A stretch of 64,000 bases of DNA from contig NZ_CP017946.1 of the NCBI RefSeq assembly GCF_003952665.1, positions 496,001 to 560,000 of the forward strand. Direction: 5' to 3'. The notes under the pieces were generated by a model, which saw only the letters and a list, made by a program, of their open reading frames with translations, searched no databases and was not told the DNA's origin. The stretch comes from Bosea sp. Tri-49. Lineage in GTDB: Bacteria > Pseudomonadota > Alphaproteobacteria > Rhizobiales > Beijerinckiaceae. Below are positions 12,391 through 63,607 of this stretch, in pieces (position 1 is the stretch's first letter; the number at the start of each line of letters is the position of its first letter). A program made the position numbers and the translations under genes.

Positions 12391-12446
12391 GCTGCCAATC
12401 CCCAGTCGGCTCTTGCCGAAGTGGGAAATTATTGCCGAGTGCATGG

Positions 12447-12461
12447 TTAACGCGCGGTTAA
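12447..12461. promoter_or_regulatory. CtrA-like box (TTAA-N7-TTAA)
   Basis: TTAA at 12447-12450 and TTAA at 12458-12461 are separated by exactly seven bases, matching the CtrA full-site consensus. The left half extends to ATGGTTAA (12443-12450), the reverse complement of the TTAACCAT half-site. It lies 57 bases upstream of the flgB start, in the divergent region with fliO. Binding is inferred from the motif alone. Confidence 0.7.
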
Positions 12462-12598: not shown

Positions 12599-13963
12599 AT
12601 GAGGCAGACCTTGCAGACTTTGTTTGGCTTCGAACTTTCCTCCGGCCTGCGTTGGATCATCGCCTTCGCAGTAGTGCTGCTCCTGGTCGCGCTGCTCGGC
12701 TTCTTCCTGCGGCGGATGAGCGGTGGGCGGCTGAAGTTCAAGGGTCAGGGTGGTGGACGTGCCCGCCAGCCGCGCCTCGGCGTGGTCGATGTCTACGATC
12801 TCGACCGGCAGCGCCAGCTGATCCTGGTGCGGCGCGATAATGTCGAGCACCTCGTGATGATCGGCGGCGCTTCCGACGTCGTGGTCGAGACCAATATTGT
12901 CCGCAGTGGCGGACGCGTGGCGGTGCCGGCGCCTACCGAAGGCCTGGCCGAGCGGCCGCTGGCCTTCGAGGCCGAATCGCGTCCGCAGATCGCCGAGGAA
13001 CCGCGCCCGCTGCCGCCTTCGCCGGTGCCGGCCGCAGCCGTTCCGGTCGATCCCGTTCCGCCGCCGCGTCCGCAACCGCCAGTCGCTCCGGCGCCTCTCG
13101 CACGTCCGATCGCCCAGCCTCAGCCGCCGCGCCCTGTGCCAGCTCCGGTTCCGCCCGCGGTCGCCGCGGGGGCTGCCGGCATCAGCGCCGCCCTGACCCG
13201 CGATCCGGCTCCGGCTGCCAGCGCCAGCGAGCTCGGCGACATGGCGCGTCAGCTCGAAGAGGCCTTGAAGCGGCCGTTCTCTGCCGTGCGTCCCGGCTCG
13301 GCCGGGCCGCGCACGGAGCCGGAAGCGCCGGTGCCGACGCCTGCCGCTCCGCCGTCGGCGCCTCCCGTGCCACCGGCTCCGCCGATCGCTGCTGCCAAGC
13401 CGCCGGCTCCGACGCCAGCGCCCGCCCGACCGGCGCTGGATATGGAAGCCGAACTCGAAATGGCGCTGGGGTTGAAGCCGGCATCGGCCCGCCCCGCTGC
13501 AGCAGAGACACCGCTGGTCGCCCCGCCGGTCTTCGCCCCGCCCAAGCCTCCGGCCGCCGAGCCAGCCAAGGCCGAAGAGAAAAAGCCCGCACCGGCAAAG
13601 GAGCAGACGCCGCCGGCTCCGGTTGCCGATCAGCCCAAGCCTGCCAAGTTCGCGCCCGTCTTCGACGACATGCTCGATGACGAGCTGGATTCCGCCAAGG
13701 CCGACGCGCCTGAGGCAACGGCCAAGGCCGAAGGCAAGCCGAACGAGACCAAGTCGGCCGAGACGAAGCCTGCGGAAGCGAAGCCCGCTGACGTCAAGCC
13801 CGCTGCTGACGTCAAGCCGGCTGAAACCAAGCCGGAAGCCGCGGCCAAGCCGTCGGATTCGAAGCCGGCCGCCAAGCCGCCTGAGGACGACCCGTTCTCG
13901 GTCGATGCGATCGAGGCGGAGTTCGCCCGCCTGCTCGGACGCGATCCCAAGCCGAAAGGCTGA
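12599..13963 (+). CDS. fliO: FliO-like export gate assembly protein with long proline-rich tail
   Basis: This 454-residue protein has one TM helix (about residues 18-38). A short basic linker leads into the FliO-type cytosolic domain (LGVVDVYDLDRQRQLILVRR then NVEHLVMIGGASDVVVETNI). Residues about 125-430 are low-complexity Pro/Ala/Lys sequence with KPAE/KPAD-type repeats. The end returns to a structured-looking, acidic-helical segment (FSVDAIEAEFARLLGRDPKP). FliO helps assemble FliP. Ordinary FliO is roughly a quarter of this length. The gene precedes fliP by 139 bases. Confidence 0.82.
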   Translation: MRQTLQTLFGFELSSGLRWIIAFAVVLLLVALLGFFLRRMSGGRLKFKGQGGGRARQPRLGVVDVYDLDRQRQLILVRRDNVEHLVMIGGASDVVVETNIVRSGGRVAVPAPTEGLAERPLAFEAESRPQIAEEPRPLPPSPVPAAAVPVDPVPPPRPQPPVAPAPLARPIAQPQPPRPVPAPVPPAVAAGAAGISAALTRDPAPAASASELGDMARQLEEALKRPFSAVRPGSAGPRTEPEAPVPTPAAPPSAPPVPPAPPIAAAKPPAPTPAPARPALDMEAELEMALGLKPASARPAAAETPLVAPPVFAPPKPPAAEPAKAEEKKPAPAKEQTPPAPVADQPKPAKFAPVFDDMLDDELDSAKADAPEATAKAEGKPNETKSAETKPAEAKPADVKPAADVKPAETKPEAAAKPSDSKPAAKPPEDDPFSVDAIEAEFARLLGRDPKPKG

Positions 13964-24973: not shown

Positions 24974-25486
24974 CTACTGCAGCAGCAGTTCCTTGAAGAG
25001 GACGGCGTCGACCTTGGCCGGGTAGACGGTAACGTTCACCCGGCGCAGCAGCTCTTCCTTCAGCCGGTACATCCCGGCCGAGCCGTCGAGGTCGGAAGGA
25101 CGCAGCTCGCGCATGAAGACCTGGAAGGCGTCCTCGACCCGCGGCAGCAGCGGCTTGACCTGGTCCGCGGTCTTGGGGTCGGCGATCTCGAGCGCGACCT
25201 TGATCTTGACGATCGGCTGGCGGTCCTGCTGCGGCCCGGCAGAGATGCCGATCATCATGTCCTTCATCTCGACGAAGGTGATCTGCTTCTTGGCCGCTGC
25301 GGCAGCCGCCTCGGCACTGACCTCCTCGACGGGCTTCTTCTTCAGGAAGAAGAACCAGCCGCCACCGAGCACGGCGACGAGCCCCAGGGCGCCGCCGATC
25401 ATGACGAGCTTCTTCTTGCCGGACTTCGGCGCCGCTCCGGCGCCGTCCTCGGCGGTCTCGTCGTCCTTGCTTGTCTTCTTCGCCAT
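24974..25486 (-). CDS. fliL: flagellar basal body-associated protein FliL
   Basis: This 170-residue single-pass protein has a cytosolic lysine-rich start, a TM helix (about 27-48, ending FFFLKKKP), and a periplasmic SPFH-like FliL domain with VKIKVALEIADPKTADQVKP, then LLPRVEDAFQVFMRELRPSD and an RVNVTVYPAKVDAVLFKELL end. FliL surrounds or stabilises the stator. It is the first gene of the minus-strand operon. A CtrA-like box lies 72 bases upstream. Confidence 0.93.
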   Translation of the reverse strand: MAKKTSKDDETAEDGAGAAPKSGKKKLVMIGGALGLVAVLGGGWFFFLKKKPVEEVSAEAAAAAAKKQITFVEMKDMMIGISAGPQQDRQPIVKIKVALEIADPKTADQVKPLLPRVEDAFQVFMRELRPSDLDGSAGMYRLKEELLRRVNVTVYPAKVDAVLFKELLLQ

Positions 25487-25557
25487 CTCGGCTTGCCTGC
25501 CCGGAACGGGCGCCGCCGCTGGCCCGTCTCTCTGGCTCCGACCTTGACCAATTACGG

Positions 25558-25572
25558 TTAACGGCCCGTTAA
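25558..25572. promoter_or_regulatory. CtrA-like box (TTAA-N7-TTAA)
   Basis: TTAA at 25558-25561 and TTAA at 25569-25572 have exactly seven bases between them, a full-consensus CtrA site. It lies 72 bases upstream of fliL on the minus strand and about 200 bases upstream of flgF. In Caulobacter the fliL promoter is a known CtrA target, and the layout here agrees. Confidence 0.7.
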
Positions 25573-25690
25573 GGAGGGCAATTTTTGCCGGGTCATTTCT
25601 GCCGCGAGGGCGGGTTCGTACCAGCGCGGTTAAAGGCTTTCAGTATTGGTATCTCCATTTATATCAAATACTTATCAGAATTAACCATGT

Positions 25691-25705
25691 TGGCACGTCG
25701 CTTGC
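25691..25705 (+). promoter_or_regulatory. sigma-54 promoter for flgF operon
   Basis: TGGCACG, four bases, TTGC is a full match to the -24/-12 consensus, with the GG and GC dinucleotides ten bases apart as required. The predicted start would be near 25717, about 59 bases before the flgF GTG. A TTAACCAT half-site at 25681-25688 abuts it. Late flagellar genes of Caulobacter, including flgF, are sigma-54 and FlbD controlled. Confidence 0.8.
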
Positions 25706-25775
25706 CACCTGATTGTCGTGGCCACCGCGCTGGGGAGCGTCGGGGCGGCCATGGGACAGATCGGGAGCAGGAGCC

Positions 25776-26519
25776 GTGGAAAACGCGCTTCTCGTCAGCC
25801 TGTCGCGCCAGATGGCTCTGGCGCGCGAGCTCGACGTCATCGCCAACAATGTCGCCAATGTCGGCACGAACGGCTTCAAGGCGCGCTCGGCGCGCTTTGC
25901 CGAATACGTCTCGCCGACGGCGCGCGCCGACACCTTCCAGACGCAGGATCGTCGGCTCTCCTATGTCATCGACAAGGGCACGCCGATCGATCTCTCGCTG
26001 GGAGCGATCGAGCGCACCGGCAACCCGCTCGATGTCGCGGTTCAGGGCGACAACTATCTCGTCGTCCAGACCCCCCAGGGCGAGCGCTACACTCGCGCCG
26101 GCTCACTCGATATCAACGGCCGCGGCCAGCTCGTGACCCAGGCCGGTCAGCCGGTCATGGGCGATGGCGGCCCGATCGTCTTCGGTTCGACCGAGAGCAA
26201 TCCGCGGATCGCCACGGATGGCACGGTCACGTCCGACCAGGGCCAGCGCGGCAAGCTCCGGATCGTGCGCTTCGACAACCCCGCTGCGCTCGCCAGCGAT
26301 GGCAGCAACCTGTTCTCCTCGACCACCGCAGCGCAGCCCGCAGGGCCGCAGGCGCGGCTCGAGACCGGGGCGATCGAGCGCTCGAATGTCAAGGCCGTGG
26401 TCGAGATGACGCGGCTGGTCGAGGTCCAGCGCGCCTATCAGACCCTGTCGGCGATGATGGCCAAGACCGACGAACTGCGTGCCAAGGCGATCACCCGCCT
26501 GGCCGATCAGCAAGCCTGA
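25776..26519 (+). CDS. flgF: flagellar proximal rod protein FlgF
   Basis: The protein has 247 residues from a GTG start, chosen because it yields VENALLVSLSRQMALARELD, the standard FlgF N terminus, with AGGAG just upstream; longer in-frame starts lack conservation. The ANNVANVGTNGFKA rod motif, the central GNPLDVAVQGDNYLVVQTPQ segment and the C-terminal helix VEMTRLVEVQRAYQTLSAMM are all present. It is the first gene of flgF-flgG-flgA-flgH. Confidence 0.95.
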   Translation: MENALLVSLSRQMALARELDVIANNVANVGTNGFKARSARFAEYVSPTARADTFQTQDRRLSYVIDKGTPIDLSLGAIERTGNPLDVAVQGDNYLVVQTPQGERYTRAGSLDINGRGQLVTQAGQPVMGDGGPIVFGSTESNPRIATDGTVTSDQGQRGKLRIVRFDNPAALASDGSNLFSSTTAAQPAGPQARLETGAIERSNVKAVVEMTRLVEVQRAYQTLSAMMAKTDELRAKAITRLADQQA

Positions 26520-49795: not shown

Positions 49796-49833
49796 CGGTT
49801 CGCTCCCTCGCGTTGGGGGGCGTTGCGCCCCGC

Positions 49834-61933: not shown

Positions 61934-63250
61934 CTAGGCCTTGAGGCGCGCCACGGCCGCTGCCGCCGTGCGGCCGGCGAGGGTCGCGCCGCCCGCGGTC
62001 ATTGCGCCGCCGCCGGCTGTCGCCTCGCCGGCGAGCCAGAGCTTGCCGCCGATCGGTTCGGCGAGGACGTCGCGTGCATTGGCATGGCCCGGCAGGCAGA
62101 CTGAGTAGGACCCGTGCGAGAACGGGTCGGTCCACCAGGCCGGGAAGGAGACCGGGCCGGCCGCCTTGCGGAATTCGCTGCCGATCATCGATGCCAGCAG
62201 ATCGACGACCTGCTCGCGGGCGGCGCCCGGACCGGCGCTCGAGAGGTCGCGGGCGAAATCGCCGCCGCAATAGCCGATGACGAGGTCGCGGTCGTCCGGG
62301 AAGAGCTCGAAGCTGATCAACCGCCCAGCCGCGCCGGCCTCGAAATAGGTCGTGCCCGGCGCGATGCCGAAGCGATCGCCCTCGACCTTGAGCGCGATCT
62401 TGGTGAGCGCGCCCATGCCAATGCCGGCGAGCGCGTCGCGGGTGCGTGCGGGCAACTCCGGCGTGAAGCGGATTCCACCGGCCTTCAGCACGCCGACCGG
62501 CACGGTGACGATGCAGGCGCGGGCCCGGAGCGTTCCCGCGGCGGTGGTGACGGCAACGCGCGAGCCGCTCCAGTCGATCGCCGTGACGGGCTGGTTCAGG
62601 CGGATATCGAGACCGGCGCCATAGCGCGCGACGAGATTGCCGTAGCCGCTCGGCACGACGTAATCCTCGCCCGACCAGAGCCGCTGATAGTCGCGCGCCG
62701 AGATGCGCGCCGATTCCTCGCCGATCGAGAGCAGCAGGCCGGAGGAGGCGACGGGCGCGAGGTCGGGGCCGAGATCGCTCAGCAACTCGGCAACGGAGAG
62801 ATCGCGGCTTTGCAGATCGACCGTCTCCAGCCGCCGGTCGATCTCGCCGAAGGCGCCGCGGCGGCGGGCGCGGTCGCCCGCCGGCATTGGCTTACCGCTC
62901 TGGAAGAGCTGGAAGCCACCACCCCAGCTTTCGTTCGGGGTCGCGACGCCAAGGTCGCGGGCAATCTCGGTCCAGGGATTGCGCTCGGCCCAGTGGATGA
63001 ACATCGCCCCGGCGTCATAGGCCGGCCCCAGCGACGAATCGGTGAAGGTGCGCCCGCCGAGGCGGTTACGCGCCTCGAGCACGATGGCCTGCCGGCCTGC
63101 AGCCTGAAGCTGCTTTGCCGCGGCGATCCCGGCCGCTCCAGCACCGATCACGACGACATCGGGTTCGGCGGCGCGGGCAGGGAAGGGCCCGCCGGCGAGA
63201 CTTGCTGCCAGCGCGCCTGAACCCATCAGCCATCTCCGGCGGTCGAGCAT
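61934..63250 (-). CDS. Tat-exported FAD-dependent amine oxidase
   Basis: This 438-residue flavoprotein starts at the ATG at 63250. The twin-arginine signal LDRRRWLMGSG precedes an FAD dinucleotide-binding loop (DVVVIGAGAAGIAAAKQLQA), then ARNRLGGRTFTD and the C-terminal FAD contact LWLAGEATAGGGAMTAGGAT of the monoamine oxidase/polyamine oxidase family. The Tat signal implies folding with FAD in the cytosol and export to the periplasm. The substrate, probably an amine, is unknown. Confidence 0.88.
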   Translation of the reverse strand: MLDRRRWLMGSGALAASLAGGPFPARAAEPDVVVIGAGAAGIAAAKQLQAAGRQAIVLEARNRLGGRTFTDSSLGPAYDAGAMFIHWAERNPWTEIARDLGVATPNESWGGGFQLFQSGKPMPAGDRARRRGAFGEIDRRLETVDLQSRDLSVAELLSDLGPDLAPVASSGLLLSIGEESARISARDYQRLWSGEDYVVPSGYGNLVARYGAGLDIRLNQPVTAIDWSGSRVAVTTAAGTLRARACIVTVPVGVLKAGGIRFTPELPARTRDALAGIGMGALTKIALKVEGDRFGIAPGTTYFEAGAAGRLISFELFPDDRDLVIGYCGGDFARDLSSAGPGAAREQVVDLLASMIGSEFRKAAGPVSFPAWWTDPFSHGSYSVCLPGHANARDVLAEPIGGKLWLAGEATAGGGAMTAGGATLAGRTAAAAVARLKA

Positions 63251-63607
63251 GAAGAATGGTCCGTGTCTGTGACGAGGCGATGATGATGCCAGCGGCTTTT
63301 CGCACCGCAATACACGACCACGAGTGCGGCGGGAGCAGGGCCATCACAGCTTTGCGAGGCCGGCCGGGTGGCGGCCTCGTCGGCGCGCAATCTTTCGGTT
63401 TAGACGAATGATAATTTTAGTTTGAAATTGCAATAAATAAGTAATGCATCACGCAATCGCGAGTCTATTGACAGTTAAACTGCAGTTAAATAACCGCTGA
63501 TGGTGAAAGTAAGGCATATGTCCTAGTTTTCAGGCATTATAAAAAGCAATCGACTTGGCAAGACAACTTGGCAAGGAAAGTTGCTTCTCAGCGACAGGAT
63601 ACGGGCG
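63251..63607. other. AT-rich regulatory spacer before the TonB receptor
   Basis: The stretch has no gene. From about 63405 it is strikingly AT-rich compared with the rest of the window. It holds a consensus -35 (TTGACA at 63468-63473) with only a poor -10 at proper spacing. It also holds a TTAA-N7-TTAA pattern (63475-63489) that may be chance in such DNA. A loose Fur- or Irr-like stretch occurs near 63408-63425, but I cannot assign an operator with confidence. Confidence 0.45.

Follow-up and report, generated by a model that had tools for sequence, protein, structure and literature searches.

The 289 bases that separate fliL from flgF in this Bosea genome are, with a probability of about 0.85 by our estimate, a divergent class II/class III flagellar promoter of the Caulobacter type that carries an additional leader hairpin. 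Divergent promoters of this kind are known, and the leader is predicted to be an RNA hairpin. The window, i.e. the whole stretch of 64,000 nucleotides that was analysed, corresponds to C1:496001-560000 in a host genome of 6.45 Mb on two contigs. Our reading draws on the sites, their conservation and spacing, the genes present and the covariation of base pairs, all of which we observed. Binding, the order of events, the start site and every function are predictions, in which CtrA at 25558-25572 would drive fliL-fliM early and FlbD, controlled by FliX, would bind the GGCA-N5-TGCC enhancer within 25577-25603 once the early structure is built. IHF at 25662-25674 would bend the DNA and sigma-54 polymerase at 25691-25705 would start transcription of flgF-flgG-flgA-flgH near 25717. 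The transcript would open with a short GGGG-loop hairpin, the most likely role of which is to adjust translation or stability.

Elements of the fliL-flgF intergenic region

The features are listed below in window coordinates.

24974..25486, minus strand: fliL (PF03748, Pfam 58.2 bits), start at 25486, heads fliL-fliM and diverges from flgF
25558..25572, minus strand: CtrA-type box TTAA-N7-TTAAC, 72 bases before fliL, exact in 30 of 30 same-genus loci
25577..25589, no strand assigned: ftr-like palindrome GGCA-N5-TGCC, putative FlbD enhancer, 114 bases upstream of the -24 element
25591..25603, no strand assigned: second, imperfect palindrome copy GGTC-N5-TGCC, 14 bases further on, in a conserved footprint block
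25662..25674, plus strand: perfect IHF consensus match TATCAAATACTTA, between enhancer and promoter
25682..25689, plus strand: half-site TTAACCAT, abutting the -24 element
25691..25705, plus strand: putative sigma-54 -24/-12 promoter TGGCACG-N4-TTGC, start predicted near 25717
25727..25740, plus strand: leader hairpin gcgct-GGGG-agcgt, an invariant block with its loop from 25732 (+16 if the start is 25717)
25776..26519, plus strand: flgF (Pfam), GTG start at 25776, heads flgF-flgG-flgA-flgH
12447..12461, no strand assigned: second, exact TTAA-N7-TTAA, 2 bases upstream of flgB (minus, start at 12444)

The intergenic elements were compared among 30 loci of the same genus (host genome included), 11 more divergent loci of the genus, loci from other families of the order and from the class, and 80 named loci. 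The latter add Methylobacterium, Methylorubrum, Enterovirga, Salinarimonas and Rhabdaerophilum to the genus set, and named and genus loci overlap in part. The five named loci with the closest FlgF (93-98 % identity) belong to Bosea, Boseaceae or unclassified Rhizobiales.

On the forward strand the letters at 25558-25572 are TTAACGGCCCGTTAA; the minus-strand TTAA-N7-TTAAC points at fliL, which by sequence has the upstream box expected of a CtrA-activated class II promoter. The pattern occurs three times in the window against 0.02 expected from shuffles, and with at most one mismatch the box was found in 77 of the 80 named loci. The copy at 12447-12461 sits between the divergent flgB and the ORF at 12599 (plus strand), which precedes fliP. 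The third exact copy (63475-63489) lies about 165 bases upstream of a non-flagellar amine-oxidase ORF (61934-63310, minus strand).

Adjoining the CtrA box is the palindrome GGCAATTTTTGCC, which is present in 80 of 80 named loci. Its distance to the -24 element is 113-115 bases in all 30 same-genus loci and 111-114 in nearly all of L160-L204, the exception having two palindromes, and varies in other families of the order (65-103 among those tallied). Exact tandem palindromes 14 bases apart were found in six loci (L088, L101, L258, L264, L275 and L289). We call it ftr-like, after the FlbD enhancer of Caulobacter, for its position. Based on its position, its recurrence and the presence of FlbD, the palindrome is likely an FlbD enhancer.

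The IHF site between enhancer and promoter is a sequence match to the consensus WATCAANNNNTTR. Searching 15-60 bases before the -24 element in either orientation with at most one mismatch, and taking expectations from shuffling, we found such sites in 24 of 30 same-genus loci (2.0 expected), 18 of 22 FlbD-bearing loci of the order (2.1 expected) and 12 of 41 loci of L160-L204 (1.0 expected), a 9- to 12-fold excess over shuffles in all three sets.

The sigma-54 site itself reads TGGCACGTCGCTTGC (25691-25705), with GG (25692-25693) and GC (25704-25705) separated by ten bases as in -24/-12 promoters. The original prediction had located this site, the spacing of GG and GC and the TTAA-N7-TTAA box at 25558-25572 correctly to the base. 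The half-site that it placed next to the sigma-54 site is indeed there, and its assignment of CtrA to the early side and sigma-54 to the late side is the best reading, with FlbD, FliX and RpoN encoded and the sites conserved. Its term "perfect" holds over the 15 bases named; the 16-base consensus TGGCACG-N4-TTGCW ends here in C, one mismatch. While both of its sites stand, that account overlooked the enhancer palindrome, the IHF site and the leader hairpin. It also described sigma-54 control of flagella as less established in Hyphomicrobiales, which is partly out of date: judging by the title, Dardis et al. in 2021 reportedly dealt with FlbD-FliX control of flagellar synthesis in Bradyrhizobium diazoefficiens. 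That species belongs to the same order and, by this title, has the same regulators.

According to passages of PMC3096577, PMC3930126 and PMC6180460, the flagellar hierarchy of Caulobacter runs from CtrA to FlbD, FliX, sigma-54 and IHF, and the first of these states that class III and IV genes need sigma-54, IHF and FlbD with FliX. Bosea resembles Caulobacter crescentus in the CtrA-type box on the early side, in the -24/-12 element with an enhancer-like palindrome and an IHF site on the late side, in the presence of RpoN, FlbD and FliX, and in the rod, ring and hook operons that bear the late promoter. It differs by the added hairpin leader and by flagellins without a sigma-54 site, whereas Caulobacter flagellins are RpoN-dependent (passages of PMC3930126).

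The flgF leader hairpin and flg-Rhizobiales RNA

Hairpins with a stem of at least 4 pairs were found in 39 of 40 leaders of the genus (0.46 expected), in 7 of 21 leaders of FlbD-bearing loci of the order (0.11 expected), with 14 lacking it, and in 1 of 33 leaders of the class (0.04 expected); the order and class counts each omit one leader that was too short. In other families the arms differ and the loop is kept, e.g. cgatct-GGGG-agattg or gttt-GGGA-gaac. Because a MAFFT alignment of the short hairpins lost the register, pairs were counted in a fixed register by script over 17 hand-chosen rows, one per distinct type, including second hairpins of two loci and two poorly pairing rows (L187 and G100) and excluding the 48 of 137 leaders in which TGGG[GA] is not found at the expected position. 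Standard pairs filled 80 of 102 cells against a mean of 59.1 for shuffled arms, and none of 2000 shuffles reached 80. As the stability of the whole 84-base leader is not unusual for RNA (z -0.81), the case for RNA structure rests on this covariation.

A genome-wide family of the leader block was considered and discarded: 34 places match with at most two mismatches against 24 backwards, and the exact block occurs only at flgF. In the 148 kb scanned, one other copy of the hairpin was noted in the window at 49810-49823 (gcgtt-GGGG-ggcgt), intergenic and not near a flagellar gene. We also rejected a small leader peptide or an N-terminal extension of flgF; there is an open frame of 268 aa upstream, but by eye it is shifted by indels between relatives that leave the block unchanged.

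The leader was also compared with flg-Rhizobiales RNA (RF01736; Weinberg et al. 2010, with a table entry in PMC2864571), which a passage of PMC3765529 describes with three stem-loops. By position, both are 5' leaders of a flagellar operon, that of flgF, in the same order, and both have hairpins with GGGA/GGGG loops. In contrast, the window scores 26.3 bits, below the gathering score of 55, and we found one clear covarying hairpin in the genus, not three stem-loops. We take the flgF leader hairpin to be a divergent, sub-threshold relative of flg-Rhizobiales RNA.

The first base of the RF01736 model falls at 25686, which precedes the predicted start by 31 bases. A scan of 20 related loci gave nine matches at E up to 0.1 and none in the other 11, among them the hairpin-bearing L088, L093, L100 and L126; the threshold was passed by two. 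Five of the nine matches begin 0-4 bases downstream of the transcription start expected from the sigma-54 site (L091 with 103.5 bits and L190 with 56.0, the two above threshold, L096 with 49.6, L172 with 30.8 and L168 with 29.1), and four start 36-52 bases before it (L141, L173, L202 and L158, 40.7-45.6 bits). The three loci with the best fit of the first stem agree with the promoter. G095, a genome of the order that measures 8.0 Mb and encodes a second FlgF, combines the same promoter with the best RF01736 match. The agreement of RF01736 starts with the sigma-54 promoter is thus suggestive, not uniform. In the literature passages that name the RNA, a body of text in which subscription papers are mostly not covered, we found neither a link to sigma-54 or FlbD nor an assigned function. 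The orphan flg-Rhizobiales RNA would gain a promoter, and with it predictions of its 5' end, regulon and timing by which its function can be tested directly.

We consider it unlikely that the leader block is instead a DNA site for a downstream-bound regulator. Such a site would suit the near-fixed distance of the block to the -24 element (36-37 bases in nearly all loci, 34 in L168) next to a distance to the start codon that ranges from 47 to 70, as well as the ordinary stability of the leader and the four RF01736 matches that begin before the predicted start. However, both arms change together and the loop stays, which is expected of an RNA stem but not of a fixed site for a protein, and the five matches that begin just after the predicted start likewise favor the RNA hairpin.

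Regarding a possible reader of this RNA hairpin, GGGA occurs 2.8 times per Bosea leader against 0.8 in shuffles. These repeats, of which one lies close to the start codon and another in the hairpin loop, are reminiscent of CsrA/RsmA target leaders. CsrA itself was nevertheless rejected as reader of the GGGA-type loops and the GGGAG ribosome site, since none of the 101 relatives has a CsrA match. FlbT is a known RNA-binding flagellar regulator of the class and is encoded in the host genome. The flgF leader could be a second, translational checkpoint, at which a GGA-reading regulator (candidate FlbT) would bind the GGGG/GGGA loop and the GGGAG site and delay rod/L-ring synthesis even once FlbD has turned on the promoter, an idea that we put forward as speculation and consider quite unlikely. 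If it were true, FlbT would be a functional counterpart of CsrA, possibly a remote relative. FlbT was found in 7 of 7 hairpin-bearing genomes of the order, but 12 of the 14 that lack the hairpin have it as well, so its distribution is uninformative on this point. In Caulobacter, FlbT acts on the flagellin leader (passages of PMC3930126 and PMC4347634); no such hairpin was found before the flagellin genes of the host genome.

By eye, the N-terminal pattern LKVELKPNERIIIG...RTRFFIEGEAPILREKDI of FlbT (L052:14991-15383, minus strand) resembles CsrA. Kinship of the two proteins is not supported: NERIIIG and GETLMIG look alike by eye, but the HHalign profile comparison gave a probability of 1.9 %. 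A search by sequence for solved structures resembling FlbT returned none.

Conservation of the flgF promoter and co-occurrence with FlbD

A sigma-54 site was counted if GG-N10-GC was intact, with at most two mismatches, no more than 200 bases from flgF, and the same rule was applied to the backwards motif. The site is present in 30 of 30 same-genus loci (backwards 0 of 30), 10 of 11 more divergent loci of the genus (0 of 11), 22 of 22 FlbD-bearing loci of other families of the order (1 of 22), 74 of 80 named loci (2 of 80) and 34 of the 38 class loci fetched (0 of 38). Allowing three mismatches, 75 of the 80 named loci have the promoter; among the remaining five, L196, L200 and L203 retain the -24 element and have GT for GC at -12, the -24 GG is changed in L155, and L167 has GG at -12. 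In the former three, a locus from Rhabdaerophilum and two MAG loci resembling it, the palindrome and the core of the leader hairpin are preserved, and there is no TTAA-N7-TTAA. We regard the arrangement as class-wide and no peculiarity of this genome.

The host FlbD matches NF050807 with 790 bits (cut-off 750), and 80 of 101 relatives have FlbD above the cut-off. Within the order we drew 40 genomes of other families, 29 of which gave an FlgF match and were all fetched. Site and divergent fliL occur in all 22 genomes with FlbD, counting G100 at 739 bits (the other 21 exceed the cut-off), and the site in none of the seven that lack FlbD. Six of these seven show no match to the window's FliL in the stretch, and their best FlgF matches reach only 33-36 % identity; the seventh (G086, assembly 67 % complete, FlgF 39 % identical) likewise lacks the site, although fliL is divergent and the palindrome is there. 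This pattern of presence and absence fits the split between subpolar and lateral flagella published in PMC6406911, a passage of which assigns Bosea subpolar flagella with or without lateral ones.

The class draw comprised 76 genomes, 46 with an FlgF match; of the 45 besides the window's own, 38 were fetched, and G132 (<100 bases upstream) and six genomes with weak best matches (G108, G120, G131, G144, G156 and G169) were left out. An open divergent frame is present in 33 loci and was shown by tblastn to be fliL in only 4. FlbD exceeds the cut-off in 18 of the 76 genomes, with 15 more at 600-749 bits. The site is found in 29 of 29 loci with an FlbD match of at least 500 bits and in 5 of the other 9. 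These five have no FlbD match >350 bits, and two of them (G159 and G160) are in genomes at least 95 % complete. Judging from this distribution, the FlbD/sigma-54 late-gene switch at flgF has a long history in Alphaproteobacteria.

Those five genomes would suit a real sigma-54 promoter whose activator is not FlbD but another, NtrC-like one of the six enhancer-binding proteins of the host genome (Sigma54_activat genes >179 bits). We hold this to be very unlikely, as within the order the site tracks FlbD exactly (22/22 against 0/7) and the palindrome recurs with the sigma-54 sites of flgF, flgE and flgI. Still less probable is transcription of flgF mainly from a CtrA/sigma-70 promoter that uses TTAACCAT at 25682, with the sigma-54 site secondary. 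The TTAAC of this half-site is invariant over the 30 same-genus loci, but TTAACC lies near the sigma-54 site in only 4 of the 11 more divergent loci of the genus, is gone in 7 and is mostly absent from other genera, whereas the sigma-54 site is retained. A search of 25400-25900 gave no sigma-70-like site, although CtrA promoters need not fit the sigma-70 consensus.

By itself, the sigma-54 motif is weak evidence. The exact 15-mer has 6 copies in the 6.45 Mb genome; with at most one mismatch there are 141 genome-wide against 115 backwards, and with at most two 8 in the window against 9.1 expected. No enrichment was seen in the 148 kb around flagellar genes, where up to two mismatches gave 5, 5 and 3 against 3, 5 and 4 backwards, and up to three gave 24, 36 and 15 against 39, 50 and 31 backwards, i.e. 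fewer. Motif counts alone are thus insufficient, and it is the conservation at the same place upstream of flgF throughout the class, together with the backwards-motif controls (0 of 38) and the 0.02 CtrA boxes expected in the window, that leaves chance matches in a large genome with practically no probability.

Other flagellar genes of the host genome

The original prediction had suggested scanning the genome for flbD and for the same element before other late flagellar genes; besides FlbD, the scan found the element before flgE and flgI. We inspected 13 flagellar gene starts and found the palindrome before flgF/fliL, flgE and flgI/fliX, and at flhA. The sigma-54 site of flgE (C1:461540-461555, two mismatches, palindrome 98 bases upstream) overlaps the called start, whose true position is probably further downstream; that of flgI (C1:473445-473460) has one mismatch and the palindrome 108 bases upstream. 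A further match with two mismatches falls inside the called fliP frame, 22 bases past its start. Near-CtrA boxes were seen by eye before flgB (exact), fliF, flhA and fliX. For the two flagellin genes (C1:467431-470386, beside flbT and flaF) no sigma-54 site with up to four mismatches was listed, the start of the second being uncertain. From the sites seen at the gene starts, the early class looks CtrA-driven and the hook, P-ring and flgF operons FlbD-driven, with the flagellins under something else.

The near-CtrA box of fliF (C1:5322034) was recognised by eye, and fliX, divergent from flgI, has its box close to the called start. At flhA (C1:5329764) GGCA-N5-TGCC overlaps the called start, with the near-CtrA box just upstream, and this combination would suit repression of an early gene by FlbD.
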